Source: Gallionellales bacterium GWA2_60_142
Lineage (GTDB): Bacteria; Pseudomonadota; Gammaproteobacteria; Burkholderiales; Gallionellaceae
Length of the DNA: 64,000 bases
NCBI GenBank assembly: GCA_001801085.1
Contig: MGWR01000061.1
Coordinates: 62,001 to 126,000, forward strand
Reading direction: 5' to 3'
Below the pieces are notes generated by a model. That model was not told the DNA's origin, searched no databases, and worked only from the letters and a program-made list of their open reading frames with translations. Positions within the stretch are counted from its first letter, which is position 1; every line of letters starts with the position of its first letter. The translations under genes were made by a program, and so were the position numbers. Of the stretch, positions 39,349 through 54,116 are shown one piece after another.

Positions 39349-39477
39349 ATGTCCATGATGTGCAAGATTAACGGCAGTTGCGAGGCCACGCCCGGCATGT
39401 GCGTGCATGAAAAGATGATGCTGGGGGCAGCGGTGTTGACTGCGCTCGGCGTCGCGGCCTACTGGTTGCTGGCTTGA
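39349..39477 (+). CDS. Small Cys/Met-rich membrane protein
   Basis: 42 residues behind ACAGGAGACTGAA. MSMMCKINGSCEATPGMCVH is cysteine- and methionine-rich, then one membrane helix, LGAAVLTALGVAAYWLLA. Too short for standard gene calls. 17 bp before the NPCAA cytochrome gene, so probably translated from the same mRNA. A soft-metal (copper-like) ligand set is visible; function unknown. Confidence 0.65.
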   Translation: MSMMCKINGSCEATPGMCVHEKMMLGAAVLTALGVAAYWLLA

Positions 39478-39494
39478 TACAAAAGGAGAACGAG

Positions 39495-40154
39495 ATGAAA
39501 CGCACCCGAATGATGCATACCCTGATCGCCTCCGGCGTGCTGAGCCTGTCCGTCGGCGGCATGGCGCTGGCCGCACCCTGTCGCGCCAACCCCTGCGCTC
39601 CGCGCAGTTCGCGCATGAACCCCTGTGCGGCGAAGAACCCCTGCGCGGCAGCCAATCCCTGCGCGGCCGCGATGGTGAAGATGGATGTCAAAGGCGTGAT
39701 GCGCCCGGCCGACTATCGCCCGTACAAGGGCAAGCAGAAGGAACTGGTCGCCTATGGCAAGCAATTGTTCAGCGACACCCGCCTGAGCAGCAACGGCATG
39801 TCGTGCAACACCTGTCATCAGGATAACGCCGCATTCCAGGCCACCTTCGCCCAGCCTTACCCGCACTATGTGCAGATGACCGACGAACGCGCAGGGGTGA
39901 AGGCGGTGCATCTGGACGAGATGGTGCAGTTCTGCATGGTGGTGCCGATGGCCGCCAAACCGCTGCCCTGGAACAGCAAGAAGCTGGCCGCACTGACGGC
40001 TTACACGGGATCGCTGCAAAAAGGATTCCGCGCGGGCAACCCTTGCGCGGCAAAGAATCCCTGTGCTGCCCGCAATCCTTGCGCTGCGAAAAGTCCTTGC
40101 GCGGCGGCCAATCCCTGCGCAGCGAAAAACCCTTGTGCGGCGACACGGCACTAA
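39495..40154 (+). CDS. c-type cytochrome with NPCAA pentapeptide repeats
   Basis: 219 residues from 39495 (AAGGAGAACGAG upstream). Signal peptide about 1-26. Then a cysteine repeat region with NPCAAK and NPCAAA units, a single-heme cytochrome domain with SCNTCHQD (about 95-102), and a C-terminal run of six units (NPCAAK NPCAAR NPCAAK SPCAAA NPCAAK NPCAAT). At least ten repeat cysteines, none in CxxCH context. Periplasmic; binding of a metal by the repeats is inferred. Upstream of an ECF sigma gene. Confidence 0.85.
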   Translation: MKRTRMMHTLIASGVLSLSVGGMALAAPCRANPCAPRSSRMNPCAAKNPCAAANPCAAAMVKMDVKGVMRPADYRPYKGKQKELVAYGKQLFSDTRLSSNGMSCNTCHQDNAAFQATFAQPYPHYVQMTDERAGVKAVHLDEMVQFCMVVPMAAKPLPWNSKKLAALTAYTGSLQKGFRAGNPCAAKNPCAARNPCAAKSPCAAANPCAAKNPCAATRH

Positions 40155-40254: not shown

Positions 40255-40818
40255 ATGAGTGCCATCGATCCAGAAACCCTGCAACAGCACCGCAGCTACC
40301 TCCTGCGCTACGCGATGCTGCAACTGCGCGATCCGCATCTTGCGGAGGATGTCGTGCAGGAGACGCTGATCGCCGCCATCGAGAGCCAAGCCAAGTTCGC
40401 CGCTCAGTCTTCTCCGCGCACCTGGCTGGTCGGCATCCTCAAGCACAAGATCATGGATCTACTGCGCAAGCGCGCGAGAGAGCCACAGTTGGACGTAGCA
40501 GACGGAGAAGACGAGAGCGAACTGGTCGATGCCCTATTCAAGGCGAACGGGCGCTGGGCCGATCCGCCGCAGACCTGGGCCGACCCGGAACAGTCGCTGG
40601 AGAACGCCAACTTCTGGAACGTGTTCGAGCAATGCAACCAGCGCATGCCGCTCAACACCGCGCGCGCCTTCATGATGCGCGAGTTCATGGACATGTCGAC
40701 CGAGGAAATCTGTCAGGAACTGGCCATCTCAACGACTAACTGCTGGGTGATCCTGCACCGCGCGCGGCTGGCGTTGCGCGAGTGTCTCGATCTGAACTGG
40801 TTCGGAAACGCGAGGTGA
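40255..40818 (+). CDS. ECF-type RNA polymerase sigma factor
   Basis: 187 residues. Region 2: YLLRYAMLQLRDPHLAEDVVQETLIAAIE and SPRTWLVGILKHKIMDLLRKR. Region 4: FMMREFMDMSTEEICQELAISTTNCWVILHRARLALRECL. Followed after 2 bases by a zinc-finger-type partner gene, the usual sigma/anti-sigma layout. Its promoter motif is unknown; the 38-bp element found three times downstream is one candidate. Confidence 0.92.
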   Translation: MSAIDPETLQQHRSYLLRYAMLQLRDPHLAEDVVQETLIAAIESQAKFAAQSSPRTWLVGILKHKIMDLLRKRAREPQLDVADGEDESELVDALFKANGRWADPPQTWADPEQSLENANFWNVFEQCNQRMPLNTARAFMMREFMDMSTEEICQELAISTTNCWVILHRARLALRECLDLNWFGNAR

Positions 40819-40820
40819 CC

Positions 40821-40997
40821 ATGCTGGACTGCAAACACAACACTGAACTGCTGTCGCAATCCTGCGACCGCCCGATCACGTTGCGCGAACGCATGGCGAT
40901 GCGCATGCACCTGCTGATGTGCCGCGGCTGCCGCAACTTCGAGAAGCAGCTGGCCTTCATCCGCAAGGCCGCGCGCGAACTGCCGCGCAAACTATAG
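40821..40997 (+). CDS. Small zinc-finger (zf-HC2-like) anti-sigma-type protein
   Basis: 58 residues, start at 40821 with GAGGTGA upstream, 2 bases after the sigma stop. The layout CKHNTELLSQSCDRPITLRERMAMRMHLLMCRGCRNF gives the H-x-C-x2-C-like cluster of zf-HC2 anti-sigma factors, without any membrane or extracytoplasmic domain. Presumed cytosolic regulator of the sigma factor. Confidence 0.82.
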   Translation: MLDCKHNTELLSQSCDRPITLRERMAMRMHLLMCRGCRNFEKQLAFIRKAARELPRKL

Positions 40998-41007
40998 GCC
41001 GACTCCG

Positions 41008-41931
41008 ATGACAGAACCGAATGCCGCGCCGCATATCAACGACTTCCTGCGCCGCCTGCATCTCGGCTCCGAGGTGTACTACGTCGGCCAGTTGTGCGAC
41101 GCCTGGCACATGTCCACGCCCGGCGGCTCCGATGCCACCACCTTCCATCTGGTGTGCATCGGCGAGGCGTGGATACACATGCCGGACGGCACGAAGCCGA
41201 CGCGAATGACGGCCGGCGACATCGCCTTCTTTGCGCACGATGCGGCGCACGCCTTCGGCGCCCAGCCCGTCATCCCGCAGCAACCCTTCGATTATTCGCA
41301 CCCCGCGCCGCTGGACAAGAACGCGCCCGGCGCCGGCCTGCTGTGCGGCCACCTGAGGCTGCCCGCGCATATCCGCCGCCTGCTGCTCGCCTCGTTCCCG
41401 GACTTCATGCTGATCCGCCCGGATAAAAGCCCCGTGGGGCGGCAGATGCGCGACCTGATCGAGATGATGACCGAAGAGGCGACGCAGAACGACCTCGGCG
41501 TGACCGCGATCCTGGATCGCCTGTCGGACATGCTGTTCCTGTATGTCATCCGTCATGCGCTGCATCAGCAGCCGAACCTGTCACCCTTGCTGGCGGCATT
41601 GTCGGACGAACACCTGCGCCCTGCCGTATCGGCCTTCATCGATGCGCCCGCCGAAAGCTGGACGGTGGAGCGCCTCGCAGGGCTGGCCTGCCAGTCGCGC
41701 TCCGCGTTCTCGGAGCGCTTCACGCAACTGGTCAGGATGCCGCCGATGGAGTTCGTCGCGACCTGGCGCATGCAGATGGCGGCCGCCATGCTGGCGGACG
41801 AACGCGCCAACATGCTGGATATCGCAATGAAGTGCGGCTACGAGTCCGAAGCCGCGTTCCGCAAGGCATTCAAGCGCATTATCGGCACCCCGCCCGGGAA
41901 AGTCCGCGGCCACGGCTCCAGTATCGCCTGA
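41008..41931 (+). CDS. AraC-family regulator with cupin sensor
   Basis: 307 residues. N-terminal cupin_6-type ligand domain (TPGGSDATTFHLVCIGEAWIHMPDG, MTAGDIAFFAHDAAHAF), C-terminal pair of helix-turn-helix (LAGLACQSRSAFSERFTQLV, IAMKCGYESEAAFRKAFKRIIGTPP). Such regulators commonly control adjacent redox genes. 10 bp after the zinc-finger gene; possibly one operon with the sigma pair. Confidence 0.9.
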   Translation: MTEPNAAPHINDFLRRLHLGSEVYYVGQLCDAWHMSTPGGSDATTFHLVCIGEAWIHMPDGTKPTRMTAGDIAFFAHDAAHAFGAQPVIPQQPFDYSHPAPLDKNAPGAGLLCGHLRLPAHIRRLLLASFPDFMLIRPDKSPVGRQMRDLIEMMTEEATQNDLGVTAILDRLSDMLFLYVIRHALHQQPNLSPLLAALSDEHLRPAVSAFIDAPAESWTVERLAGLACQSRSAFSERFTQLVRMPPMEFVATWRMQMAAAMLADERANMLDIAMKCGYESEAAFRKAFKRIIGTPPGKVRGHGSSIA

Positions 41932-41995
41932 TATTCCGCACTCCGCTCCCGCGCCGTAAACGCTCCAGCATTTACGGCGCAGAAATTTGCGCTTA

Positions 41996-42033
41996 TCTGG
42001 ACGAATAGACACAAATCCCGCCTTTACAGTCAT
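41996..42033 (+). promoter_or_regulatory. 38-bp shared motif, copy 1
   Basis: TCTGGACGAATAGACACAAA then TCCCGCCTTTACAGTCAT. Aligned to copies at 47909 and 50574 without gaps; common core ACAnAAATCCCGC plus a terminal TCAT. It lies 76 bp before the CMD remnant start. Confidence 0.65.
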
Positions 42034-42108
42034 AGCCCCTGAAATAGCAATTCACGAGAATAAGTCTCGGGCAGCACTTCCGCTGCCTGCTCAATTCTGG
42101 AGCTCATC

Positions 42109-42267
42109 GTGAATTCATTCGAACTGCACACTCGCAATTCCGCAGCGCCGGCGTTGGCCCCGATTCCCGGTGCCGCACAGAACACACGCGGGTACGAGCA
42201 AAACCTGTCGGCACATCTGACGGAATCCCCTGCTGCATTGAAGCCCTATGTGTGCCGCAAACATTAA
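42109..42267 (+). pseudogene. AhpD/CMD-family gene remnant
   Basis: A GTG start behind GGAGCTCATC, like the intact gene at 48023. MNSFELHTRNSAAPALAPIP and LSAHLTESPAALKPY line up with MSTFKLHTIGSAPAASAPIL and LYANLAESPSTLKAY of that protein, then the frame ends at VCRKH. The CxxC part is lost; only 52 codons remain, directly before glutaredoxin. Confidence 0.85.
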
Positions 42268-42290
42268 CTCGACACATCGGGAGACAAAAA

Positions 42291-42551
42291 ATGTCAGGCA
42301 TCACGATTTACACCAAAAAACATTGCTCTTACTGCGTCCAGGCCAAGGTGCTACTCCAAAGCAAGGAATATTTGTTCCATGAGATCAGCCTCGAAGCGCA
42401 TCCGGAACTGCTGCTGGAAGTCATGGAGAGATCCGGACAACGCACCGTCCCGCAAATTTTCGTAGGCAACCAATCTGTCGGCGGCTTCACCGAGCTGTTC
42501 CAGAAAATATCGAACGGCGAGTTCGATGCATTAATTCAACCATCAACTTAA
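42291..42551 (+). CDS. grxC: Glutaredoxin 3-type protein
   Basis: 86 residues from 42291 (GGGAGACAAAAA upstream). Dithiol active site CSYC (about 12-15), then the TVPQIFVGNQSVGGFTEL cis-Pro and GG region, standard for GrxC. Reduces disulfides with glutathione. Next to a hydrolase with signal peptide; no strong functional link visible. Confidence 0.92.
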   Translation: MSGITIYTKKHCSYCVQAKVLLQSKEYLFHEISLEAHPELLLEVMERSGQRTVPQIFVGNQSVGGFTELFQKISNGEFDALIQPST

Positions 42552-42570
42552 CAATAACCGAGGAGCGATC

Positions 42571-43323
42571 ATGAAAACGATATTTAATCCAATCAAAAAA
42601 ACGGCACAAACCCTGGCCATGCTGGTGGCAATCACTTCGAGCGCCTGGGCCGAATTACCCAATCCCGGAATGACCATCGATCCTGCACGCACAGCGCTGG
42701 TCATCACCGATCCGCAGAACGACTTCCTGAGTCCCAAGGGCGTGACCTGGGGCGTGGTTGGCAAGAGCGTGGAGAAAAACGGGACGGTCGAGCATATCGA
42801 GCAATTGTTCAAGGCCGCCAAGGCAAATAATATTCCCGTGTTTGTCTCGCCGCATTACTACTACCAGCACGACCATCAGTGGAAATTCGAGGGCGCGCTG
42901 GAAACGCTGATGCACAAGATCGGCATGTTCGACCGCAAGGGCGCGTTGACCACGGAAGGCTTCAAGGATTCCGGTGCGGATTGGCTGAAGCAATACAAAC
43001 CGTATATCGAAGACGGCAAGACCGTGGTGACCAGCCCGCACAAGGTATACGGCCCGGAGACCAATGATCTGGTGCTGCAACTGCGCAAACGCGGGATTGA
43101 TAAAGTGATCCTCGCCGGCATGTCCGCCAACCTGTGTACCGAATCCCACTTGCGCGAATTTCTGGAACAGGGCTTTGAAGTCGCCGTGGTGACCGATGCC
43201 ACCGCCGCAGCGCAACTACCGGAAGGGGACGGTTACGAGGCCGCGCTGGTAAATTTCCGCTACATGGCCAACACCACCTGGAATACCGCACAGGCTGTCG
43301 AGGAAATAGGCAAGAGCAAGTAG
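42571..43323 (+). CDS. Isochorismatase-family cysteine hydrolase, exported
   Basis: 250 residues. Signal peptide about 1-27 (ends SAWA). Catalytic triad by family comparison: Asp in TDPQNDF, Lys in SPHKVYGP, Cys in MSANLCTESH. Members hydrolyse amides, ureides or vinyl ethers; the substrate is unknown. A periplasmic location is unusual for the family. A hairpin follows. Confidence 0.9.
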   Translation: MKTIFNPIKKTAQTLAMLVAITSSAWAELPNPGMTIDPARTALVITDPQNDFLSPKGVTWGVVGKSVEKNGTVEHIEQLFKAAKANNIPVFVSPHYYYQHDHQWKFEGALETLMHKIGMFDRKGALTTEGFKDSGADWLKQYKPYIEDGKTVVTSPHKVYGPETNDLVLQLRKRGIDKVILAGMSANLCTESHLREFLEQGFEVAVVTDATAAAQLPEGDGYEAALVNFRYMANTTWNTAQAVEEIGKSK

Positions 43324-43342
43324 GCCGGCTTTAATGCCGGCC
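43323..43342 (+). terminator. Hairpin after isochorismatase-family gene
   Basis: GGCCGGC-TTTAAT-GCCGGCC beginning at the stop codon; no T-run follows, so termination is uncertain. Confidence 0.5.
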
Positions 43343-43477
43343 ATTACCTGCCACTGACGGGAGATAAGTCTGGAATGAAAATTCAACCGGCGAATGCGGG
43401 CTATACCTCGTCAATCCAGAACAGGCACTGCCAAAAGAAGCAGATCAACCCACCCCACCACTTATGGAAATAACCTT

Positions 43478-44245
43478 ATGAAAAGCATCAATCACTCTAC
43501 GGCCTTGATCATAGGCGGATCAAGCGGGATGGGCCTTGCAACCGCGAGGCTGTTGCTGGAGCGCGACATTGCAACCGTCATTGTCGGCAGTTCACTGGAA
43601 AAGCTGGAAGCGGCAAAGCGCGAGCTTTCCGCATCCGGCAGTGTTGAAACCATTCAGGCCAACCTGTACGAGCAGGATGATGTGCAGCGTATTGTCTCGC
43701 TCGCCGAAAACCATGGCCGTCACATCAAATACCTGGTTAATGCAGCGGGATACTTCAAGCCAACATCATTCCTTGAGCACACTCCAGGGGACTACGACAC
43801 TTATATGGGTTTGAACCGCGCTGCCTTTTTCATTTCGCAGGCAGTGGCAAAAAACATGAAGGCAAACGGCGGTGGCTCGATCGTGCATATAGGTTCGATG
43901 TGGGCCAAACAAGCGATCAAGGCCACACCCTCTTCTGCATATTCGATGGCGAAGGCAGGATTGCACGCACTCACGCAGCACATGGCGATGGAGTTGGCCG
44001 ACCACAACATTCGTGTGAACGCTGTCTCGCCGGCGGTGGTGAATACGCCTATTTACAAGTCATTCATTGATCCGGGCAAGATCGTCGAAACACTCGCATC
44101 GTTCAACGCCTTTCACCCGATCGGAAGGATAGGCACACCCGAGGACGTGGCAAAAACCGTCGACTTTCTGCTGGCAGACGATGCGAGCTGGGTAACTGGC
44201 GCAATATGGGATGTCGATGGCGGGGTGATCGCCGGGCGAAACTGA
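43478..44245 (+). CDS. Short-chain dehydrogenase/reductase
   Basis: 255 residues. [17 protein letters not shown] cofactor loop, VNAAG, Ser in IGSMW, YSMAKAG (Y-x3-K), and the C-terminal [14 protein letters not shown] classical SDR. The substrate is unknown. Upstream 5' DNA to 43345 shows no other gene. Followed by an HPP-family gene on the same strand. Confidence 0.9.
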
Positions 44246-44311
44246 ACGCGCCGATGCGCGTGCCTGGCTCAGGTGACGAGCGTTTAGGATTGCAACAGGA
44301 AAGGGAAACAG

Positions 44312-44821
44312 ATGTTGATATTCATGCGAAAGTTGCGGGGAGACGACATGCCGCTGCCACCGAGAGCGAGTCTGCAAGCTGTCGGCCTCGCGTGGCTGGG
44401 TGGTTTTCTGGCGATCGCCGTCCTCGCCGTTTTTTCGGACATGTACGCCGCAGCACTGCTGCTCGGCTCGTTCGGCGCATCATGTGTTCTGGTATTCGGC
44501 TACCCGGAGGTGCCATTCTCGCAGCCTAGGAATGTGCTGTTCGGTCACCTGATCAGCTCCGCAACAGGGCTGGCGTTCATGGCGCTGACAGGCCCGCACT
44601 GGTGGACGGTGGCCGGTGCCGTCGGCACCGCCATTGCGCTCATGATGCTCACCCGCACCGTCCATCCGCCCGCCGGCTCGAATCCCGTAATCATTTTTCT
44701 GGCCCAGCCAGGGTGGGGATTCCTGCTGTTCCCAACGCTGGCTGGAGCATGTCTGCTGATTGCCGTCGCACTGCTTTACAACAATGTGACGCGTGCAAGC
44801 CGCTATCCGAAATACTGGTAA
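44312..44821 (+). CDS. HPP-family membrane protein
   Basis: 169 residues with four hydrophobic segments and the name motif, RTVHPPAGSNP (about 117). Some HPP proteins carry nitrite in plastids and cyanobacteria; a transport role is inferred. Starts at 44324 or 44348 are possible. Convergent with a LysR gene. Confidence 0.9.
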   Translation: MLIFMRKLRGDDMPLPPRASLQAVGLAWLGGFLAIAVLAVFSDMYAAALLLGSFGASCVLVFGYPEVPFSQPRNVLFGHLISSATGLAFMALTGPHWWTVAGAVGTAIALMMLTRTVHPPAGSNPVIIFLAQPGWGFLLFPTLAGACLLIAVALLYNNVTRASRYPKYW

Positions 44822-44864
44822 ACGACCTGGCCGCCGTGAACGGACACCACAAAATAAATGGCCC

Positions 44865-45764
44865 TTAGTTCAGCGCCTTGTCCGCACGCAGTCGCTCGAC
44901 CGCGAGATCGACGAAACTGCGAATCTTCGCTGACTTGTGACGCCCTTCGCTGTGGATGACATGCACCGGCAGGTCGGTCCCTTCGTAGTCCCCGAGAACG
45001 GTTTTCAGTTCCCCCGAAGCAAGTTGCGGCGCTACCTGGTAGGACAACAGGCGCGTCAATCCATAACCTTGTCGCGCGGCCTCCAGCGCTCCGTCATTGG
45101 TATTTACAACGATGCGCGGCTGGATGCGCAGTGTTTGTTTTTCGCCGGCCGACTGAAAAATCCAGTCGTTCGTCGGCGAGAGTCCGCTCGACGCAACGAG
45201 GCGATGTTGTGCCAAATCATCCGGTGTCCGGGGAATTCCATGTTTTTCGAGATAGGCCGGTGCACCGACCACGACCCGGCGCACGCGCCCGACGCGGATG
45301 GCGCGCAGTGACGAATCCGGCAATTGGCCGATGCGGATGCCGACATCCATGCCCTCGTCAACCAGGTTCACGACACGATCGACAAACAGTGCCGACACCG
45401 TCGTTTGTTCGAAGGCCGACTGATACTCGGTAATGATCGGCATCACGCACAGCTTGCCAAAGAGCACCGGCGCCGTGACCGCCAATTGCCCGCGCGGCGT
45501 CGCATTGATGCCCGCTGCGGCGGCATCGGCCTCCTCCATCTCGATCATGATGCGGCGCGCGTCCTCAAGGTAGCGCGCCCCGGCTTCGGTCACGCGCACG
45601 ACGCGCGTAGTCCGGATGAGCAAACGCACCCCCAGCCGTTCTTCCAGCGCCACCACGGCGCGCGTCACCGCTGGAGGTGACATCTTCAGGTGCCGGGCAC
45701 CGCCGGCAAAACTTTCGGCTTCGGCAACGGCGACAAAGACGTTCATCAGGTGGAAACGGTTCAT
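44865..45764 (-). CDS. LysR-family transcriptional regulator
   Basis: 299 residues: FVAVAEAESFAGGARHLKMSPPAVTRAVVALEERLGVRLL is the HTH, then the substrate-binding part (AVTAPVLFGKLCVMPIITEY, DVGIRIGQLPDSSL). CrgA/AaeR-like subgroup. Divergent from the CMD gene at 45896, with an AT-rich 130-bp gap containing ATTCT/TAATTAATTA; it probably regulates that gene and its PNPOx-FNR neighbour. Confidence 0.93.
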   Translation of the reverse strand: MNRFHLMNVFVAVAEAESFAGGARHLKMSPPAVTRAVVALEERLGVRLLIRTTRVVRVTEAGARYLEDARRIMIEMEEADAAAAGINATPRGQLAVTAPVLFGKLCVMPIITEYQSAFEQTTVSALFVDRVVNLVDEGMDVGIRIGQLPDSSLRAIRVGRVRRVVVGAPAYLEKHGIPRTPDDLAQHRLVASSGLSPTNDWIFQSAGEKQTLRIQPRIVVNTNDGALEAARQGYGLTRLLSYQVAPQLASGELKTVLGDYEGTDLPVHVIHSEGRHKSAKIRSFVDLAVERLRADKALN

Positions 45765-45895
45765 TATTGTTTCTCCAATCGGAATAATTAATTACATTCT
45801 ATAGGTATTCTTGCTTTCAATCATCTTTGGCAAAGTGGCGACCGTCGGCAACACAGCGACACCCCAACCTCAACATCACGCAAAGGATGAATATC

Positions 45896-46441
45896 ATGGC
45901 CCGCATCAACGTCGTCACCCACGAAACCGCCAACGCCGAACAAAAGGCGCTTTTCGACGCGATCCAATCGCAACTCGGCATCGTCCCAAACTTTCTCAAG
46001 GTGTTCGCCAACTCGCCGGATGCCCTCAAGGCATTCCTCGGCCTGCACGGCATCGCCAACGGCGGCAGCCTCGATCCCCAGACCCGCGAACGCATCGCCC
46101 TTGCGCTGGCGCAACAGAACGCCTGCGAATACTGCCTGTCGGCGCACACCGCAATCGGTCGCAAGGCCGGCCTCAACGGTGCCGAGATGGATGCCAACCG
46201 TGCCGGCACCAGCCAGGATGCCAGAGCCGCTGCCGCCGTGAGGTTCGCCCGGGCCATCAATGATCACACCGGCGACGTCACCACCGACGAACTGGACGAA
46301 GTTCGCAGCGCCGGCTACAGCGAGGCGGAAATCGTCGAGATCATCACTCACGTCGGCATGAACATCCTGACGAACCTCATCGGCAGGGCCAGCCGCGTCG
46401 AAATCGACTTTCCGAAAGTCGACTTGAAACTCGCCGCCTGA
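45896..46441 (+). CDS. AhpD/CMD-fold peroxidase-like protein (1)
   Basis: 181 residues. Start at 45896 after AAAGGA (an ATG 9 bases earlier is too close to it). Active site NACEYCLSAH (E-x2-C-x2-C-H type with Glu), preceded by LGIVPNFLKVFANSPDALKAFLG, gives the carboxymuconolactone decarboxylase / AhpD fold. Likely thiol peroxidase or alkylhydroperoxidase activity. Next gene is the PNPOx-FNR fusion. Confidence 0.92.
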   Translation: MARINVVTHETANAEQKALFDAIQSQLGIVPNFLKVFANSPDALKAFLGLHGIANGGSLDPQTRERIALALAQQNACEYCLSAHTAIGRKAGLNGAEMDANRAGTSQDARAAAAVRFARAINDHTGDVTTDELDEVRSAGYSEAEIVEIITHVGMNILTNLIGRASRVEIDFPKVDLKLAA

Positions 46442-46492
46442 GAACGAGGCGATGGCGGAAGGGAACCCTTCCGCCTACGAAAGGAGACATCC

Positions 46493-47788
46493 ATGGCCAA
46501 CGCATTTTTCCATACTGCGTTCACACCGAACGTCAAGGCCGTGCAGACCCGCATGGGAAGCCGCGAGGCCTATGGCCTCCATGAGCAGGGCCCGGTGGAA
46601 GAACCCGAACTTGGTCCGAACGAGATCGCCTTCATCGAGGCGCGCGACAGTTTTTATCAAGGATCTGCAGGCGAAACCGGCTGGCCCTATGTCCAGCATC
46701 GCGGGGGGCCTGCCGGCTTCCTCAAAGTACTCGACGCACACACCGTCGGCTACGCCGACTTCGCCGGAAACCGTCAGTACATCTCGACGGGCAACCTCGC
46801 CGGCGACAACCGCGTCAGCCTGTTCCTGATGGACTACCCGCACCAGACCCGGCTGAAGATATTCGGCCGGGCGCAGGTGATCGACGAGGACAGCGATTCC
46901 GGACTGCTGGCACGTCTGGACAATCCCCATTACCGGGCGCGCGTTGAGCGCGGCATTGTCATCCGTATCGAGGGCTTCGACTGGAACTGCCCGAAGTACA
47001 TCACCCCCCGCTATACGGAAGGCGAAGTCGTGCAAAGGATCAAGCAGGCCACGTCGGCGCTGGCAGCGCAGGCTTCGCGGCAGAACGCACGGCCTGAGGA
47101 AGCGCTCGGCAACGGCGCGCTTGCGCTCACGGTCACCGGTGTCCGCCAGCTGACCCCGCGCATCCGCGCCTACGAACTGCATGCCGAAGACTGGGGCGAC
47201 CTGCCGCCGGCTGAGGCCGGCGCACACCTCGATGTGCCGGTGCGTCTTGTCGACGGATCGGTGGTCACGCGACAGTACTCGCTCGCGGCGGATCCCAGAC
47301 ACCGCGACATGTACGAGATCGCCGTGCTCCGCGAGAGCGACGGACGCGGCGGCTCGCGGGCGATCCACGAGACCTGGCAGATCGGCACGCGGCTGCGCGT
47401 CGCACCGCCGGCCAACCACTTTCCGCTGCACGCCGATTCGCGCCCTGCGGTGCTGATTGCCGGCGGGATCGGAATCACGCCGATCAAGGCCATGGCACAG
47501 GCACTGAAGCGGCGCAACGTACCGTTCGAACTGCACTACACGGGGCGGTCGCTCGCTGACATGGCCTACCGCGACCGGCTCGCAGTCGAATTTACGAACG
47601 GCTATTTCACCTATTTCAGCCGCGTGCCGGGCCACCGACGCCTCGATGTTGCCGAAGTGATGGAGCATGCTGCCGTCGGCGCCGTGTTCTACGTCTGCGG
47701 CCCGGTCGCGCTGATCGAGGCTGCGCGCACGGCCGCAAACCGGCTGGGTATCGCACCGGAGCGGGTGCAGCAAGAGTCGTTCTATTAA
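46493..47788 (+). CDS. PNPOx-like domain fused to ferredoxin-NADP reductase-like domain
   Basis: 431 residues. About 30-170 is a PNPOx-type flavin (FMN) fold: WPYVQHRGGPAGFLKVLD, YADFAGNRQYISTGNL. About 205-431 is an FNR module: RQYSLAADP (FAD), LIAGGIGITPIKAMAQAL (NADP), and YVCGP. The final [2Fe-2S] domain of phthalate-dioxygenase-type reductases is absent; the protein stops at QQESFY. Transfers electrons from NAD(P)H to a flavin substrate. Coupled to the CMD protein 51 bp upstream. Confidence 0.9.
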   Translation: MANAFFHTAFTPNVKAVQTRMGSREAYGLHEQGPVEEPELGPNEIAFIEARDSFYQGSAGETGWPYVQHRGGPAGFLKVLDAHTVGYADFAGNRQYISTGNLAGDNRVSLFLMDYPHQTRLKIFGRAQVIDEDSDSGLLARLDNPHYRARVERGIVIRIEGFDWNCPKYITPRYTEGEVVQRIKQATSALAAQASRQNARPEEALGNGALALTVTGVRQLTPRIRAYELHAEDWGDLPPAEAGAHLDVPVRLVDGSVVTRQYSLAADPRHRDMYEIAVLRESDGRGGSRAIHETWQIGTRLRVAPPANHFPLHADSRPAVLIAGGIGITPIKAMAQALKRRNVPFELHYTGRSLADMAYRDRLAVEFTNGYFTYFSRVPGHRRLDVAEVMEHAAVGAVFYVCGPVALIEAARTAANRLGIAPERVQQESFY

Positions 47789-47804
47789 CGTGAATCGAGC
47801 GGGA

Positions 47805-47850
47805 TCTTGTCCCTCTCGCCCGCTTGCGGGATAACCAGCGACTTGGCCGC
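47805..47850. repeat. Dispersed repeat, copy C (right half)
   Basis: On the minus strand GCCAAGTCGCTGGTTATCCC then GCAAGCGGGCGAGAGGG, as at 14723-14760. The left half is absent. Confidence 0.6.
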
Positions 47851-47908
47851 GGGCGCATCGTCGCCGTTCCGCCGGACAAGGTTCGCGGCCGACCCGCCGC
47901 AACACATC

Positions 47909-47946
47909 TCTGGATGATCGGACATAAATCCCGCTCTGGCAGTCAT
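47909..47946 (+). promoter_or_regulatory. 38-bp shared motif, copy 2
   Basis: TCTGGATGATCGGACATAAA then TCCCGCTCTGGCAGTCAT, 76 bp before the CMD start at 48023, the same spacing as copy 1 to its remnant. Confidence 0.7.
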
Positions 47947-48022
47947 GGAGACCTCCCCTCCGAATCCTGACAATGGATTCCAGCAACTCGTCCCGTTGCT
48001 TAACCAATTTCAGGAGATCATC

Positions 48023-48604
48023 GTGAGTACATTCAAGCTGCATACCATCGGCTCTGCCCCTGCGGCATCCGCCCCCATCCTCGAAGAGGCCAACAAAGGC
48101 CTGGGCTTCATCCCCAACCTGTATGCCAACCTGGCCGAGTCGCCTTCGACCCTGAAAGCATACAAGCAACTCGGCGCCCTGCTCGAACAGAGTGCCTTCA
48201 CCCCCGAAGAGCAGCAGGTCATCCTGATTGCCGTCAGCGTCGAGAACAACTGCTCATATTGCGTGGCGGCTCACTCGTTCATTGCCAAGAACATGGTCAA
48301 TGTCGCCGGCGAGGTTGTCGCGGCACTCCGCAATGACCAGGCGCTTTCAAGCCCCAAGCTGAATGCGCTGTCCCTGTTCGCAAAGGCTGTCGTGCGTGAG
48401 CGCGGCTGGGTCGCCGACAGTCAGGCGCTCAAGGATTTCTTCGCCGCCGGCTACGGCCGCCAACATGCGCTTGAAGTCGTGCTGGGCGTCACCATGAAGA
48501 CCCTGAGCAACTACGCCAACCATTTGATGGATACGCCGCTGGATGTCGTATTCGCCAGCGAAGAATGGGAAGCGACAAGCAAGGCCGCGTGCTGCGGGCA
48601 TTAA
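48023..48604 (+). CDS. AhpD/CMD-fold protein (2)
   Basis: 193 residues from a GTG at 48023, placed by CAGGAG and by homology with the remnant at 42109. Active site NNCSYCVAAHS (Cys-x2-Cys). The C-terminal tail SKAACCGH adds a CC pair. About 30 percent like CMD (1) and (3). Likely peroxide or thiol-linked. Followed by a tautomerase gene. Confidence 0.9.
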   Translation: MSTFKLHTIGSAPAASAPILEEANKGLGFIPNLYANLAESPSTLKAYKQLGALLEQSAFTPEEQQVILIAVSVENNCSYCVAAHSFIAKNMVNVAGEVVAALRNDQALSSPKLNALSLFAKAVVRERGWVADSQALKDFFAAGYGRQHALEVVLGVTMKTLSNYANHLMDTPLDVVFASEEWEATSKAACCGH

Positions 48605-48693
48605 TCCGGGAGGGGTAATTCGCACGCGAAGTTTGTGTGTGGTCGCCACTCAAGGGCATCAGTTCAAATTCAACCAATGAAAGGAAATCAATC

Positions 48694-48909
48694 ATGCCAC
48701 TCGTACAAATCAAGGGGATCAGCGGTTATCTGTCCATCGAGCAAAAACAGGAAATCATCCGCAAGGTCACCGATGCCGTGCTGTCGGTGGAAGGCGAAGG
48801 CCTGCGCTCCGTAACCTGGGTGCTGATCGAGGATGTTCCATCCGGCGCATGGGGCGTGGGGGGTACGCCTGTCAGCTCGGACGATCTTCGTGCGATGAGC
48901 AAGGCCTGA
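48694..48909 (+). CDS. 4-Oxalocrotonate tautomerase-family protein
   Basis: 71 residues from 48694 (AAAGGA). Pro immediately after Met (MPLVQIKGI), later VLIEDVPSGAWGVGGTPVS, complete for a catalytic 4-OT subunit. Acts as hexamer or similar. Substrate here unknown. Between CMD (2) and the redoxin. Confidence 0.92.
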   Translation: MPLVQIKGISGYLSIEQKQEIIRKVTDAVLSVEGEGLRSVTWVLIEDVPSGAWGVGGTPVSSDDLRAMSKA

Positions 48910-49019
48910 TTCTCGATGGCGTCCGAGGTGCAGTCGGCGAAGGCCGCCATCAATCAGTTCACGTCCCGCAAGGCATGTCCCTGCGGGATGTCTCAACCGA
49001 ATCGAAGAAGGGAATTATC

Positions 49020-49886
49020 ATGAATCTGATCAAGTCGATTTTCATCAGCAGTTACATGATGCTGATCATGGGTGTCACGGCATATTCTGGCTGGATGCTC
49101 TATCAAGGCGATAACTCACTGTCCTGGGGCGGAGCGATGCTGACTTCACTACCGATGTTGATGGTGCTCAGCCAGCTCATGATGCTGAAAAACACCGCGC
49201 GAACCAGCGTCCACTTCCCCGTTCCGAACCTCCTCGGCGCAAGCGGCGTACTGCTTTCCGCATGGGCATGGATAAACATGGATGCGGATATTCTTGCTCC
49301 CGCCCTGTCCATGATTGCCTGGGCTGGCTTCTGGCTTTATGCCTACTGGTTTTCGACCTTCGGCGGACGACAGCCGAGCATGAAAATGATCGTGGGAAAC
49401 AAGCTGCCAAAATTCAGCGTTCGCGGAACCGATGGCGCTTTCGTCACCTCGTCGCAATTGACCGACAAGCCGGCAATCCTGATTTTCTATCGCGGCAACT
49501 GGTGCCCGTTGTGCATGGCTCAAATCAAGGAGCTCGTTGCACACTACAAGGAAATCTCCGCGCTCGGCGTGCGGGTTGCGATGATCGCCCCGCAGCCGCA
49601 CAGCAACACTGTTGAGTTGGCGAACAAATTCGATGTGAAGTTCGACTTCCTGACCGACGAAGGCAATGCCGCCGCGCGCGCGCTCGGGATCGAGAATCCG
49701 AACGGCATACCGATGGGAATGCAGGCGCTCGGGTACGACAGCGAATCGGTTCTTCCGACGGTCATCATCACCGATCGTGACGGCAAGATCGTCTGGACTC
49801 ACGAAACCGACAACTACCGCATTCGTCCGGAACCGGATCTTTATCTCGACATCCTGCGCAGATACGGCGTGGTGGCCGGAGCCTGA
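49020..49886 (+). CDS. Membrane-anchored AhpC/TSA-type redoxin
   Basis: 288 residues from 49020. Four hydrophobic segments (to about 120), then a peroxiredoxin-like domain with ILIFYRGNWCPLCMAQIKEL: C-x2-C as in redoxins. YDSESVLPTVIITDRDGKIVWTHETDNYRIRPEPD closes it. Probably faces the cytosol. A decayed copy of its C-terminus is at 50644-50791. Confidence 0.88.
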   Translation: MNLIKSIFISSYMMLIMGVTAYSGWMLYQGDNSLSWGGAMLTSLPMLMVLSQLMMLKNTARTSVHFPVPNLLGASGVLLSAWAWINMDADILAPALSMIAWAGFWLYAYWFSTFGGRQPSMKMIVGNKLPKFSVRGTDGAFVTSSQLTDKPAILIFYRGNWCPLCMAQIKELVAHYKEISALGVRVAMIAPQPHSNTVELANKFDVKFDFLTDEGNAAARALGIENPNGIPMGMQALGYDSESVLPTVIITDRDGKIVWTHETDNYRIRPEPDLYLDILRRYGVVAGA

Positions 49887-49987
49887 CAGGAATTCGGCGT
49901 TGACGGATGGCGGCCGATTGGGCGCAGCTGCGACAACATGGTTCGCCCCGTCTTTTCCAGGGAAATGAAAATGATGGAGACCAAGCA

Positions 49988-50506
49988 ATGAATCAAACTT
50001 CGCATAATTCGACGGATGCATCTCTGGCCATTCTTCACGAGATCGGCCGTTCGTTCGGGTGCATTCCGAATCTCTTCCAGGCCTATGCAAAACATCCCCC
50101 TTTGCTGCAAGCCAACTGGAACAAAGTTAAGCAGTTGCTGCTGAACGGCAAGATGGCCCGCCTTCCCAAGGAGGTCATCGCGCTGCTCGTGTCGCATGAC
50201 AACGGCTGCAGCTATTGCATCGCGGCACATTCCGCCGCCCTGAAAAGCATGGGCGTGGGCGAGCGCCAGATCGAAGAGATGATTCAGGGCAACCTCGCAC
50301 CCCATTTGCACAAACGGGATATCGAGCTCGTTCTCTTCGCCCGCAAGGCCAACCAGCGTCACCATGACATCGACAAGGATGAAATCGACAGACTGGTCTC
50401 CTCGGGATACACGGAAGCCGAAATCGTCGAGGCACTGGGCGTCATGGAACTGTTCGCCGGATTCAACCGCTTCGCCAGAGCCATGAAGATCGAGGTGGAC
50501 TTCTGA
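49988..50506 (+). CDS. AhpD/CMD-fold protein (3)
   Basis: 172 residues from 49988. NGCSYCIAAHSAALKSMGV is the active site; IPNLFQAYAKHPPLLQANW and FNRFARAMKIEVDF are the fold edges. Third CMD gene in 5 kb. GGAGACC before ATG. Downstream is copy 3 of the 38-bp motif. Confidence 0.9.
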   Translation: MNQTSHNSTDASLAILHEIGRSFGCIPNLFQAYAKHPPLLQANWNKVKQLLLNGKMARLPKEVIALLVSHDNGCSYCIAAHSAALKSMGVGERQIEEMIQGNLAPHLHKRDIELVLFARKANQRHHDIDKDEIDRLVSSGYTEAEIVEALGVMELFAGFNRFARAMKIEVDF

Positions 50507-50573
50507 TGCGCAGTGAAGAGCGGAACAATGGATATAACCGTCTGGCAGTAATACACCCATGCAGATACAGAAC

Positions 50574-50611
50574 TGTGGACGATCAGACATAAATCCCGCT
50601 CTCGCGATCAT
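50574..50611 (+). promoter_or_regulatory. 38-bp shared motif, copy 3
   Basis: TGTGGACGATCAGACATAAA then TCCCGCTCTCGCGATCAT. The following genes are a redoxin remnant and the hypothetical at 50815. Confidence 0.65.
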
Positions 50612-50643
50612 GGAGGCGGCAACATAACTTCCTGATAATAGAC

Positions 50644-50791
50644 TACGACAGCGACACGGTGATGCCCCCTCGTCATCACCGACCACAACGACAGGATATT
50701 GTGGGCGCACGAGACGGACAACTACCGGGTGCGCCCCGAGCCGGACACTTTTCTGGGAGTGCTGTGCATGCATGGCGTAGTCGCGGCATGA
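50644..50791 (+). pseudogene. Redoxin C-terminal remnant
   Basis: YDSDTVMPP, then in the next frame LVITDHNDRILWAHETDNYR and VRPEPDTFLGVL to a stop: matches the C-terminus of the redoxin at 49020-49886. Frame shifted after MPP; the front is absent. Confidence 0.85.
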
Positions 50792-50814
50792 ATCCAACAT
50801 CAAGGAGATACAGC

Positions 50815-51261
50815 ATGAGCAAGAAAGTATTACTCGCCCGACCGCACGCATTCATCGTGGCTGAGATGCGCCCGTTCCTGGAACGCAGCGGCTACCAGCC
50901 GACCCGGCTGGAAAGTCTGGACGACATGCAGTCCGGCAAGCTGGGCACGTTCAGCGGCGCGATCATCTCGACGGCGGTGGTGTCGTCCATCGCGGCCAAA
51001 CCGGCAGAGGTGTTCGCCGCATTGCGCCAGCACTATCCGTCTCTGCCTGTGATGTTCGCCGGACTGACCGGATTCGATTCCACCCTGCCCACGATACAGC
51101 GCATCGTGCGTGACGTGCATCCCGGCGCGACCATCCTGCCTTTCAATGGCAGCACTGAGCAAAACACCCGTCTGGGGGAGCGCGACGTGTTCCTGTTCCT
51201 GAACAAGGAGGACATTACGAACGGCGCCGCAGAAAACATCCTGCGCCGTCATTTCCGCTAG
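50815..51261 (+). CDS. Hypothetical receiver-like protein
   Basis: 148 residues from 50815 (AAGGAG). VLLARPHAFIVAEMRPFLERSGYQPTRLESLDDM and GAIISTAVVSSIAAK, PSLPVMFAGL suggest a response-regulator-like alpha/beta fold, but the phospho-Asp is not recognisable. Ends FLNKEDITNGAAENILRRHF. Function unknown. 9 bp before NrtS. Confidence 0.75.
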   Translation: MSKKVLLARPHAFIVAEMRPFLERSGYQPTRLESLDDMQSGKLGTFSGAIISTAVVSSIAAKPAEVFAALRQHYPSLPVMFAGLTGFDSTLPTIQRIVRDVHPGATILPFNGSTEQNTRLGERDVFLFLNKEDITNGAAENILRRHFR

Positions 51262-51270
51262 GCACGCGCC

Positions 51271-51504
51271 ATGGCTTTGATACGCCTGCTCCGCATCGCC
51301 GGTCGCCGCCGGATCGCGCTACCTGCCTTGAAGGTGGCGCTGGTGGTCGGCACCCTGCTCAATCTGGTGAATCAGGGCGGGAATCTGCTGGAGGGTATGC
51401 CGCTCAATGCGACGCAGATGCTGCTGAACTATCTCGTGCCTTTCTGCGTATCCAGCTACAGCGCCGCGCGCAACGAGCTGCAGCGTTGCGACGGACAGGA
51501 CTGA
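51271..51504 (+). CDS. NrtS-like small membrane protein
   Basis: 77 residues. KVALVVGTLLNLVNQGGNLL and LLNYLVPFCVSSYSAARNEL match the two-helix NrtS family, proposed to move nitrate/nitrite. 9 bp after the receiver-like gene and 86 bp before DUF427, all same strand. Confidence 0.8.
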   Translation: MALIRLLRIAGRRRIALPALKVALVVGTLLNLVNQGGNLLEGMPLNATQMLLNYLVPFCVSSYSAARNELQRCDGQD

Positions 51505-51590
51505 ACTCCCGCTCCATCCTGCCTTGTAAGGTCTTCGCTGTATTGACCGACCAACGGTCGCATCGTATTACTTACTTTCAGGAGAACGTC

Positions 51591-51881
51591 ATGCCCAGAG
51601 CCATCTGGAACGACCAGGTCATCGCCGAAGCGCCCAGCAACGAGATACACCGCGTGGAAGGCAACGTCTACTTTCCGCTGTCTGCAGTGAAGCGCGAGTT
51701 CCTGCGGGACAGCGAAACGCACACGCACTGCTTCTGGAAAGGCGAGGCCAGTTATTACGACGTGGTGGTCGACGGCAAGGTGAACGAGGATGCCGCCTGG
51801 TATTACCCCGAACCGTCCGCGATGGCGGCCCGCATCAAGGATTACGTCGCGTTCTGGCACGGCGTCAAGATAGAGGACTGA
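51591..51881 (+). CDS. DUF427 family protein
   Basis: 96 residues. PRAIWNDQVIAEAPSNEIHRVEGNVYFP, DSETHTHCFWKGEASYY, and DAAWYYPEPSAMAARIKDYVAFW are the DUF427 motif set, a small beta barrel. Often next to egt or other redox genes; function unknown. 7 bp before egtB. Confidence 0.93.
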   Translation: MPRAIWNDQVIAEAPSNEIHRVEGNVYFPLSAVKREFLRDSETHTHCFWKGEASYYDVVVDGKVNEDAAWYYPEPSAMAARIKDYVAFWHGVKIED

Positions 51882-51888
51882 CGAGACG

Positions 51889-53127
51889 ATGGATGAACTG
51901 ATCGAACGTTACCGCGCGGTGCGCGCGCGCACGGAAGCACTGTGCGGGCCGCTGGAGATCGAGGATTTCTGCATCCAGGCGATGGAGAACGCGAGTCCGC
52001 CGAAGTGGCACCTGGCGCATGTCAGCTGGTTCTTCGAGATGTTCATCCTCGTGCCCTATGCGCAACAGTACCGCATGCTGCGCGAGGAATACGCGCACCT
52101 ATTCAATTCCTATTACGAAACGGCGGGCACGTTCTTCCCGCGCCCGCAGCGCGGCATGCTGTCGCGGCCGACGGTAGACGACGTGTACCGCTATCGCCGC
52201 CATGTCGATGCCGCGCTGCTGGAACTGCTGGCGCAGCCGCCGGAACAGCATGTGACCGACATCCGACAGCGGGTGCAATTGGGGATCGAGCACGAGATCC
52301 AGCATCAGGAACTGCTGCTGATGGACATCCGCTACAACTTCTCCATCAACCCGCTGCACCCGGTCTATCACGAGATCGCGTTGCCACCCGCCGCGCCGCT
52401 GCCCGCAATGGGCTGGCAGGATTTTTCTGCAGGCATCGTAGAGATCGGCCACAACGGTGACGGCTTCGCCTATGACAACGAGCGTCCCCGGCACAAGACT
52501 TACGTGCAGGATTTCCGTCTCGCCACTCGGCTGGTCAGCAATGCGGAATATCTGGCCTTCATCGAAGACAGCGGCTACGACCGCGTCGAGCTGTGGCTGT
52601 CCGATGCGTGGCGCGCGCTCAAGGAACAAAGCTGGCAGGCGCCGCTATACTGGTTCAAACAAGACCGCGCCTGGCTGCATTTCGATCTAACCGGTGCGCA
52701 TGCACTGCGTCTGGATGAGCCGGTGTCGCACCTGAGTTATTACGAGGCTGACGCCTATGCGCGCTGGGCGGGCAAGCGGCTGCCGACCGAGGCAGAATGG
52801 GAACATGCCGCCGGCACGCAGACCATCGCCGGCAACTTCCTCAACAACGGCCTGTATGTGCCGCAGCCTGCGCAACATTCCGGCATGACCCAGATGTTCG
52901 GCGACCTGTGGGAATGGACGCAGAGCGCCTACCTGCCCTACCCCGGCTTCAAGCCGCTGCCCGGCACGCTGGGCGAATACAACGGCAAGTTCATGTGCGA
53001 CCAGATGGTGTTGCGCGGCGGATGCTGCGTCACCGCGCAGGATCACATGCGCGCCAGCTACCGCAACTTCTTCCGGGCCGCAGACCGCTGGATGTTCTCC
53101 GGCCTGCGTCTGGCGGAGGACATCTGA
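51889..53127 (+). CDS. egtB: Ergothioneine biosynthesis protein EgtB
   Basis: 412 residues. N-terminal DinB-like domain with the iron ligands in WHLAHVSWFFE and HEIQHQELLLMDI; C-terminal FGE-sulfatase domain (VSNAEYLAFIEDSGY, AYARWAGKRLPTEAEWEHAA, LRGGCCVTAQDHMRASYRNFF). A non-heme iron sulfoxide synthase joining hercynine and a thiol substrate (gamma-glutamylcysteine or cysteine). Overlaps egtD by one base (TGATG). Confidence 0.95.
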   Translation: MDELIERYRAVRARTEALCGPLEIEDFCIQAMENASPPKWHLAHVSWFFEMFILVPYAQQYRMLREEYAHLFNSYYETAGTFFPRPQRGMLSRPTVDDVYRYRRHVDAALLELLAQPPEQHVTDIRQRVQLGIEHEIQHQELLLMDIRYNFSINPLHPVYHEIALPPAAPLPAMGWQDFSAGIVEIGHNGDGFAYDNERPRHKTYVQDFRLATRLVSNAEYLAFIEDSGYDRVELWLSDAWRALKEQSWQAPLYWFKQDRAWLHFDLTGAHALRLDEPVSHLSYYEADAYARWAGKRLPTEAEWEHAAGTQTIAGNFLNNGLYVPQPAQHSGMTQMFGDLWEWTQSAYLPYPGFKPLPGTLGEYNGKFMCDQMVLRGGCCVTAQDHMRASYRNFFRAADRWMFSGLRLAEDI

Positions 53128-54116
53128 TGCGCAACGAATCCCCCACCCCTGCGCAGGTTCTGGGCGAGGACGATTTTCTCTGCAGCGTGCGCGAAGGTCT
53201 GCGCAGTCGCCCCAGGAGTATCCCGCCGAAATACTTCTACGACGCGCACGGCTCGCAGCTGTTCGACCTGATCTGCACCACGCCGGAGTATTACCCCACG
53301 CGCACCGAGACCGCCATCCTCGAACGGCACGGCGCGGAGATGGCCCGGATGATAGACACCTCCAGCACATTGATCGAGCTGGGCAGCGGCAGCGCGATCA
53401 AGACGCCGTTGATCCTGCAGCATCTGGCGCACGATGCCGTGTATGTGCCGATCGACATCTGCGAACCGCATCTGCTCAACAGCACGCAACGTCTGCAAAC
53501 GAGGTTCCCCGCGCTGAAAATGCAGCCGCTGTGCGCCGACTACCATCAACTGCCCGGCCATGCGATCAAGCGTCATGCGGGTCGGCGACAAGTGGTGTTC
53601 TTTCCCGGCTCCACCATCGGCAACTGCACACCGGACGAAGCCGTGCAGTTATTGAAGCGCGTCGCCGCGCTGGTCGGCCCCGGCGGTGGATTGCTGATCG
53701 GCGTGGATGCGAAGAAATCGACCGAGACGCTGAATGCCGCCTACAACGATGCCGCCGGTCACACTGCCGCGTTCAATCGCAACCTGCTGACGCGCATGCA
53801 AAGCGAACTCGGCGCGCAACTTGATGTGGATCAGTTCGCACATCATGCGTATTACAACGAGACGCATGGACGCATCGAGATGCATCTGGTCAGCCGCTGC
53901 AAACAAGCGATACGACTGAACGGGGAATCGTTCGAGTTCGACGAGGGCGAGAGCATCCACACCGAGAACTCCTACAAGTACACCGCGCAGGAATTCCAGC
54001 AACTGGCGCGCACGGCGGGCTGGCACCTGCAATCGACCTGGCACGACGCGCACGAATTGTTCAACGTGCACTACCTCAGCCAGTCCGCCGTAGAGCCGCT
54101 GAAGCTGGCGCGCTGA
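53127..54116 (+). CDS. egtD: L-histidine N-alpha-methyltransferase EgtD
   Basis: 329 residues from 53127 in the TGATG overlap with egtB. PPKYFYDAHGSQLFDLICTTPEYYPTRTE, LIELGSGSAIKTPLIL, FFPGSTIGN and HENSYKYT-like IHTENSYKYT motifs define EgtD. Makes hercynine from histidine and SAM. egtA, C and E are not seen here. Confidence 0.96.
   Translation: MRNESPTPAQVLGEDDFLCSVREGLRSRPRSIPPKYFYDAHGSQLFDLICTTPEYYPTRTETAILERHGAEMARMIDTSSTLIELGSGSAIKTPLILQHLAHDAVYVPIDICEPHLLNSTQRLQTRFPALKMQPLCADYHQLPGHAIKRHAGRRQVVFFPGSTIGNCTPDEAVQLLKRVAALVGPGGGLLIGVDAKKSTETLNAAYNDAAGHTAAFNRNLLTRMQSELGAQLDVDQFAHHAYYNETHGRIEMHLVSRCKQAIRLNGESFEFDEGESIHTENSYKYTAQEFQQLARTAGWHLQSTWHDAHELFNVHYLSQSAVEPLKLAR

Follow-up and report, generated by a model that had tools for sequence, protein, structure and literature searches.

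A putative RclR-like AraC regulon of AhpD-fold proteins and its operator-promoter module in a Gallionellaceae redox island

In Escherichia coli, the AraC-family regulator RclR becomes active when Cys21 and Cys89 are oxidized, and its target responds to hypochlorous acid (HOCl) and N-chlorotaurine and not to the peroxides and electrophiles tested (excerpts of PMC7464077). In Pseudomonas aeruginosa, an AraC-family RclR homologue adjoins and upregulates rclX, a gene for an AhpD-like protein with a CxxC motif, and both protect against HOCl and hypothiocyanous acid (HOSCN) (excerpts of PMC7950407). Here, we describe a redox island with a comparable arrangement in Gallionellales bacterium GWA2_60_142, located on a 64,000-nt stretch of DNA (contig MGWR01000061.1, positions 62,001 to 126,000; hereafter the window) of an assembly of 2.34 Mb that is 80.5% complete. 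The island contains a gene for an RclR-like AraC regulator and genes for three AhpD-fold proteins of the carboxymuconolactone decarboxylase (CMD) family, referred to as CMD1, CMD2, and CMD3. Coordinates are those of the window, and features lie on the plus strand unless stated otherwise.

We propose, with a probability of about 0.55, that the island is an inducible thiol-redox detoxification regulon around the RclR-like AraC protein, probably directed against reactive chlorine or similar oxidants. The adjacency of AraC and CMD2 genes and their shared promoter module were seen by comparison of loci, and control of CMD2 by AraC is putative. The likeness to RclR-RclX is one of arrangement and fold. 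There, rclX is given as a single-gene operon in the excerpts of its source, whereas the window has two predicted operons with glutaredoxin, an isochorismatase-family hydrolase, a short-chain dehydrogenase (SDR), a tautomerase, a redoxin, and more CMD proteins. The E. coli regulator is likewise of the AraC family, with 27% identity to the window protein and the Cys89 position kept, but its targets are rclA, rclB, and rclC, and RclB gave no alignment with the window tautomerase. In place of a list of redox genes, our interpretation offers a testable regulon whose predicted promoters have exact coordinates. It also connects a probable thiol-sensing AraC regulator of environmental lithotrophs and methanotrophs with an orphan exported isochorismatase and with AhpD-fold proteins that go by the name of "carboxymuconolactone decarboxylase."

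The predicted operator-promoter module and its AraC partner

A 38-bp motif, approximately CGGAcgATCGGACAwnnAT-N14-CATGG, occurs three times in the window, with a −10-like hexamer fixed 20 nt downstream. Site 1 (41998..42035; matrix score 27.3) is followed by GAGAAT (42056..42061), site 2 (47911..47948; score 37.3) by GACAAT (47969..47974), and site 3 (50576..50613; score 37.6) by GATAAT (50634..50639), so that all three retain the hexamer. With up to three mismatches, the 23-bp core of the motif was found at these three positions and in none of 100 shuffles, and the three copies are the only ones in the 2.34-Mb assembly. In genomes of the genus, the core lies about 110 bp 5′ of CMD2 orthologues.

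We assembled a sample of 80 named CMD2 loci and scored their upstream DNA with a 38-bp matrix. The matrix was trained on 14 Gallionellaceae sites, including that of L047, and tested on 64 other loci, for each of which the 400 bp upstream of CMD2 were examined; L047, L091, and L102, with less than 150 bp upstream, were left out of the scoring. A window-like AraC gene was defined as an open reading frame (ORF) scoring at least 50 bits to the window AraC protein and lying no more than 1.5 kb from CMD2. All 32 loci with such a gene scored at least −12.4, and 29 of the 32 loci without one scored −18.9 or lower. The site was present at the remaining three, two of which (L036 and L072) have an AraC gene 3.6-3.7 kb away, and the third of which (L064) has none within the 6.6 kb examined. 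Overall, an intact site is kept at 48 of the 80 CMD2 loci, and across Gallionellaceae, Methylococcaceae, Rhodanobacteraceae, and a few others, the module occurs together with AraC genes of this type. One of the 32 AraC-bearing loci, on a second Nitrotoga contig (L032, near position 5885), pairs CMD2 with a visibly broken site and a weak AraC ORF of just 82 bits, as if this copy were decaying.

The spacing of the hexamer is constant as well. In a set of 45 aligned sites, xAxxxT starts at +20 after the motif in all 45, and the best other offset between 8 and 35 accounts for 11 of 45. Four sites omitted from this set (L032, L045, L064, and L068) were checked separately; three of them have xAxxxT at +20, the miss being the broken L032 site, so that 48 of 49 homologous sites have it in total. 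Most hexamers are GACAAT in Gallionellaceae, resemble TAACCT in methanotrophs, and read GACACT or resemble CAAAGT in Rhodanobacter. Such a geometry would be expected of an activator site that covers a housekeeping −35 region. Comparison of loci identifies the 38-bp motif as a predicted operator that forms, with the −10 hexamer, the predicted promoter of CMD2, and regulation by AraC through this module appears well supported by the same comparison.

The pairing of regulator and site was also evident within the genus. Among 76 genomes, AraC (E < 1e-40) is found in 8, with two copies in one of them, and the same 8 carry CMD2 with the site, which gives nine pairs (Fisher P = 5e-11, kinship ignored). 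Two genomes (G072 and G033) encode CMD homologues of 31-42% identity, and they have no AraC gene at this threshold and no site.

We then searched whole genomes for the site combined with its −10 hexamer, covering 27 of the 80 loci (26 genomes). This pattern gave 20 matches, and its reversed control gave 1. The matches included 17 CMD2 promoters, one position before the Nitrotoga glutaredoxin-isochorismatase genes, and two near-identical positions 1.2 kb apart in G536. When 1.1 Mb of locus DNA was scanned at a score of 17, one further good site emerged beyond those of CMD2 and the window. It lies at L038, where it is a second site directly 5′ of an isochorismatase gene broken into two ORFs, perhaps by a frameshift. 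Some relatives have a weak match, of score about 17, within their AraC gene, and this match was treated as chance.

Outside the matrix, the genome G040 and a Methylocystis plasmid (L130) show the site and −10 hexamer 5′ of a CMD gene. L130 was the only one of seven plasmid AraC neighborhoods with a convincing site and hexamer; L128 has a weak site with the hexamer, L131 has a weak site without it, and the best scores of the other four are 10.9 or lower. The weak site of L128, a Pseudoalteromonas plasmid, is on the minus strand near position 5439, before a YHS-domain gene and beside AraC and glutaredoxin genes.

The regulator and its likely signal

The AraC protein (41008..41931) carries a Cupin_6 domain (Pfam, 127.8 bits) and an AraC helix-turn-helix domain (HTH_18), as does RclR. 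Its best NCBIfam model is NF040475 RclR at 120.1 bits, with the next best model at 53 bits. Cys113 aligns with Cys89 of RclR and is Cys in 45 of 45 CMD2-linked AraC proteins, and Cys30 is Cys in 43 of 45. These cysteines fit an RclR-type switch without proving one, and the protein is probably a thiol-sensing activator. In a tree of AraC proteins, the Gallionellaceae, methanotroph, and Rhodanobacter groups are separate. A preliminary description of this DNA had listed the motif copies; their role as a predicted operator and −10 module that accompanies the AraC gene, and the position of RclR as the nearest NCBIfam model for the regulator, go beyond it.

In the proposed mechanism, an oxidant would oxidize Cys30 and Cys113, and AraC would then bind over the −35 region and activate transcription. 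The likely signal would be reactive chlorine species (HOCl, N-chloramines, or HOSCN) or similar electrophilic oxidants. Site 1 lies before glutaredoxin, isochorismatase, SDR, and the HPP gene, as part of a probably captured CMD2 promoter; site 2 lies before CMD2, tautomerase, redoxin, and CMD3; and site 3 lies before the stretch past a redoxin remnant. A LysR-CMD1-PNPOx/FNR unit is embedded in the island and is a member of the same gene guild. We infer the enzyme roles as follows. The CxxC AhpD-fold proteins and the redoxin would draw electrons from glutaredoxin, thioredoxin, or NAD(P)H to reduce the oxidant or what it gives rise to, and the exported hydrolase, tautomerase, SDR, and flavoprotein would clear secondary products.

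A peroxide or aldehyde chemistry had been suggested for the island in the preliminary description; we prefer reactive chlorine, by analogy with the following precedents. Besides the P. aeruginosa and E. coli regulators, a CMD of Burkholderia cenocepacia is among the genes strongly induced by HOCl (excerpts of PMC7464077). An AhpD-like family, equated with RcsA by the authors, has been linked to chlorite dismutase, and AhpD-like, SDR, LysR, extracytoplasmic function (ECF) sigma, and peroxiredoxin families recur beside cld (excerpts of PMC9751292), although the window's own assembly has no chlorite dismutase. Taken together, these precedents make reactive chlorine or related oxidants the best guess.

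The closest competitor, to which we assign distinctly less credence, is that the same regulon serves another chemistry, with organic hydroperoxides, quinones, aldehydes, or other electrophiles in the place of reactive chlorine. The enzyme folds are all of a generic redox kind, the scores of CMD1 and CMD3 exceed the cut-off of the "peroxidase-related" model TIGR01926, none of the CMD2-bearing genomes of the genus has chlorite dismutase, and the regulator falls well under the RclR equivalog cut-off (120 versus 400 bits) and shares its cysteines with other AraC proteins. However, RclR is by far the best model for the regulator, and the closest studied arrangement of AraC and AhpD-like genes acts against HOCl and HOSCN (excerpts of PMC7950407).

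The equivalog score and the lack of chlorite dismutase, a gene present in 1 of 76 genus genomes overall, weigh against the proposed regulon, as do the following points. Cys30 lies three alignment columns from RclR Cys21. Of seven plasmid AraC proteins, mostly not encoded near CMD2, six have Cys in the Cys113 column and four in the Cys30 column, so the cysteines are no specific sign. The tree leaves E. coli RclR and most plasmid AraC proteins unplaced, on long branches. The site-bearing loci are kin within a few families; therefore, the locus counts lack independence. The search for the site with its −10 hexamer had no match in eight of its 26 genomes, because that pattern is stricter than the matrix. 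Class-wide, a shortened motif was present in 12 of 369 genomes, our own included, compared with 4 control matches, and with the full matrix no match outside our own genome reached a score of 17. A scan of the E. coli rcl region gave no 38-bp operator, its best score being 4.8. By title, none of the open-licence PMC papers found to name both Gallionella and hypochlorous concerned this subject. Chlorite dismutase had been considered as a marker of chlorine chemistry and was dropped for its absence from the CMD2-bearing genus genomes.

A more ambitious version of the reactive chlorine regulon is conceivable, and we put it forward tentatively, as somewhat doubtful. The locus may represent a widespread undescribed oxidant-response module of iron oxidizers, nitrite oxidizers, and methanotrophs. 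In this module, an AraC operator-promoter of fixed geometry would control an AhpD-fold enzyme and a captured exported hydrolase of the isochorismatase type, which would form a two-compartment pathway for N-chlorinated or similarly oxidized metabolites. We did not find the operator or the gene set described in the titles, abstract starts, and passages seen in searches of open-licence PMC literature.

Enzymes of the island and the adjacent sigma factor

We scanned 20 proteins with Pfam models, the scan of CMD2 starting at 48035. Every gene family named in the preliminary description was found by Pfam between 40255 and 51261; the three 38-bp motifs and two gene remnants were likewise confirmed, and the general view of a redox or detoxification island is supported. 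CMD1 (45896..46441; PF02627 54.8 bits), CMD2, the main conserved target (48023..48604; 31.1 bits), and CMD3 (49988..50506; 51.7 bits) all exceed the PF02627 cut-off of 23 bits, and each has an AhpD fold and a CxxC motif with a following His. CMD1 and CMD3 score 84.7 and 84.0 bits with TIGR01926, above its cut-off of 81.8, and CMD2 scores 51.6, below it. The nearest PDB chains to CMD2 are 6e8l and 3lvy.

Downstream of site 1 are genes for glutaredoxin (42291..42551; Pfam, 65.4 bits), the isochorismatase-family hydrolase (42571..43323; PF00857 100.4 bits versus a cut-off of 27), which has a signal peptide as judged by eye, the SDR (43478..44245; Pfam), and an HPP membrane protein (44312..44821; Pfam TM_HPP 167.6 bits). 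Two SDR/HPP genes had been reported here; both families are present, as one SDR and one HPP gene. A LysR regulator (44865..45764, minus strand; Pfam) is divergent from CMD1. It is followed on the other side of CMD1 by a PNPOx-like domain fused to an FAD/NAD reductase (46493..47788; Pfam), in which Pfam found no Fe-S domain. Among the solved structures that match the reductase half are parts of P450 reductase and phthalate dioxygenase reductase. An AlphaFold model of the fusion, built from seven sequences, had a mean predicted local distance difference test score of 48 and was not used. After site 2 and CMD2 come the tautomerase (48694..48909; Pfam, 46.2 bits) and an AhpC/TSA redoxin (49020..49886; Pfam, 83.2 bits) with an NWCPLC motif and a hydrophobic N-terminal part, judged by eye to be the membrane part. 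A 148-residue protein 3′ of site 3 (50815..51261) has a homologue in Sideroxydans L043 and no match to Pfam or NCBIfam models.

Catabolic enzymes go by these same family names. A catabolic island would break down an aromatic or amide compound by means of CMD, tautomerase, isochorismatase-type hydrolase, SDR, and a PDR-type reductase, and it would account for the weak similarity of the isochorismatase to biuret hydrolase and RutB and for the likeness of the reductase half to dioxygenase reductases. We consider it unlikely, given that the 20 scanned proteins include no ring-cleaving dioxygenase, that the CMD proteins bear the redox CxxC and His, and that glutaredoxin and a peroxiredoxin-type protein are part of the set.

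The ECF sigma factor gene just 5′ of AraC (40255..40818) encodes 187 residues with regions 2 and 4 only (Pfam Sigma70_r2 and r4_2) and scores 252.2 bits with TIGR02943, versus a cut-off of 162.2. A small zf-HC2 protein, possibly an anti-sigma factor, follows (40821..40997; Pfam, 27.4 bits versus a cut-off of 22.2). ECF41 sigma factors have a C-terminal SnoaL-like extension beyond regions 2 and 4, and their targets are CMD and oxidoreductase genes. The island resembles ECF41 systems in having CMD genes beside oxidoreductases, but its sigma factor belongs to TIGR02943 and, in agreement with the preliminary description, is not an ECF41, and the shared promoter module tracks AraC rather than the sigma gene. 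A rival in which the 38-bp module is the promoter of this sigma factor instead of an AraC operator is even less likely than a catabolic island. The sigma gene precedes AraC in the window and at 7 of the 80 loci (L031, L033, L034, L039, L041, L043, and L044, at least 300 bits each). Yet an intact site occurs at 48 of the 80 and that sigma gene, within the DNA examined, at only the 7; AraC is the common factor, and the downstream hexamers resemble a housekeeping −10.

Two plasmid arrangements place related genes beside sigma factors. Chelatococcus plasmid pCO-6 (L126, 5369-9337) has the order LysR-CMD1-PNPOx-CMD-SigJ. We take this sigma factor, annotated as SigJ, to be ECF41-like, and the arrangement is a possible link of the LysR-CMD1-PNPOx unit to ECF41-type sigma factors. 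On an E. coli IncC plasmid (L125, 6297-8278), a haloacid dehalogenase gene is followed by genes for a CMD2-like protein and a sigma factor, and the dehalogenase-CMD pair is listed also for Klebsiella, Salmonella, and Citrobacter plasmids.

Colinearity with Nitrotoga and the wider gene guild

The set is conserved in a relative, so that the refuting condition named in the preliminary description, a lack of conservation in all relatives, does not hold. One contig of Candidatus Nitrotoga (L030 with L151/L170) carries, as in the window, AraC, site, a short CMD2 5′ remnant, glutaredoxin, isochorismatase, SDR, HPP, LysR, CMD1, PNPOx/FNR, site, CMD2, and tautomerase in succession; the redoxin is just a 35-bit trace, and CMD3 has no match. 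Parts of the set are found in other phyla. DNA identity to Nitrotoga is 83-87% over 42611-47783 and 81.5% over 40421-41907, and it is lower in the CMD2-tautomerase stretch (73%) and an HD-GYP gene (75%).

The CMD2 5′ remnant, recognized by translation and by its Nitrotoga counterpart, lies between site 1 and glutaredoxin (about 42109..42267). The colinear order includes this remnant in Nitrotoga, so the glutaredoxin/isochorismatase operon has probably captured site 1. Site 1 and its −10 hexamer are kept in both genomes, although the remnant before glutaredoxin has diverged, so site 1 probably now drives the glutaredoxin-isochorismatase operon. This would be a case in which a promoter passes to another operon as the gene with which it arrived falls into decay.

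A redoxin gene 3′ remnant (about 50643..50791) follows site 3 and was recognized by its match to Sideroxydans L043. The DNA from 50643 to 54112 is continuous with this locus, from the redoxin 3′ end through EgtD. Given this continuity, the two remnants seem to mark the borders of a resident CMD2-redoxin operon that a larger block entered. The motifs and remnants had been taken as signs that the block was copied repeatedly. They exist, but the motifs are predicted promoters and not mere duplication scars. The copying idea was set aside because the junction of CMD2 remnant and glutaredoxin is shared with Nitrotoga, to which the L043 continuity can be added; insertion of a block into a resident operon, together with promoter capture, fits the comparisons better.

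We also looked for the genes of the island in distant genomes, using 50 of the 80 loci (49 genomes), none of which bears a Gallionellaceae name, with thresholds of E < 1e-20 for isochorismatase and E < 1e-40 for PNPOx or FNR. Isochorismatase homologues were detected in 19 genomes (1-2 matches each) and PNPOx or FNR matches in 29. In 11 of the 17 genomes with both, the two lie no more than 6 kb apart (10 via the PNPOx domain, 1 via the reductase domain only), for which a rough binomial that ignores kinship gives a chance probability of about 1e-23. Among the six others, the genes are on different contigs in five, perhaps from broken assemblies, and about 100 kb apart in one. The LysR-CMD1-PNPOx/FNR unit is present in L030, L049, L053, L056, and L061, and in Methylobacter (L049) and Methylomonas (L053, L056, and L061) it lies no more than 6 kb from AraC-site-CMD2. 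In loci of the Roseobacter type (e.g., L087, L094, L100, L101, and L107), isochorismatase lies near CMD2, and both such an AraC gene and the site are missing; the guild is therefore wider than the regulon. The least probable reading of all is that unrelated genes accumulated here and share no role. The sporadic occurrence in the genus (PNPOx/FNR in 2 and AraC in 8 of 76 genomes) and the remnants could speak for it, but Nitrotoga keeps the same order with both promoters, and pieces cluster in distant genomes.

The conserved neighborhood starts 5′ of the previously assigned boundary and takes in the sigma gene and a cytochrome-like gene. The latter (39474-40154) specifies a SoxA/TsdA-like cytochrome in which NPCAA repeats, encoded by repeats of 18 nt, lie close to either end, and such a gene is found 5′ of the sigma gene in relatives too. 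Directly 3′ of the island, at 51585-54116, are genes for DUF427, EgtB, and EgtD, the latter two an ergothioneine-type pair, and several relatives have the same genes in this position.

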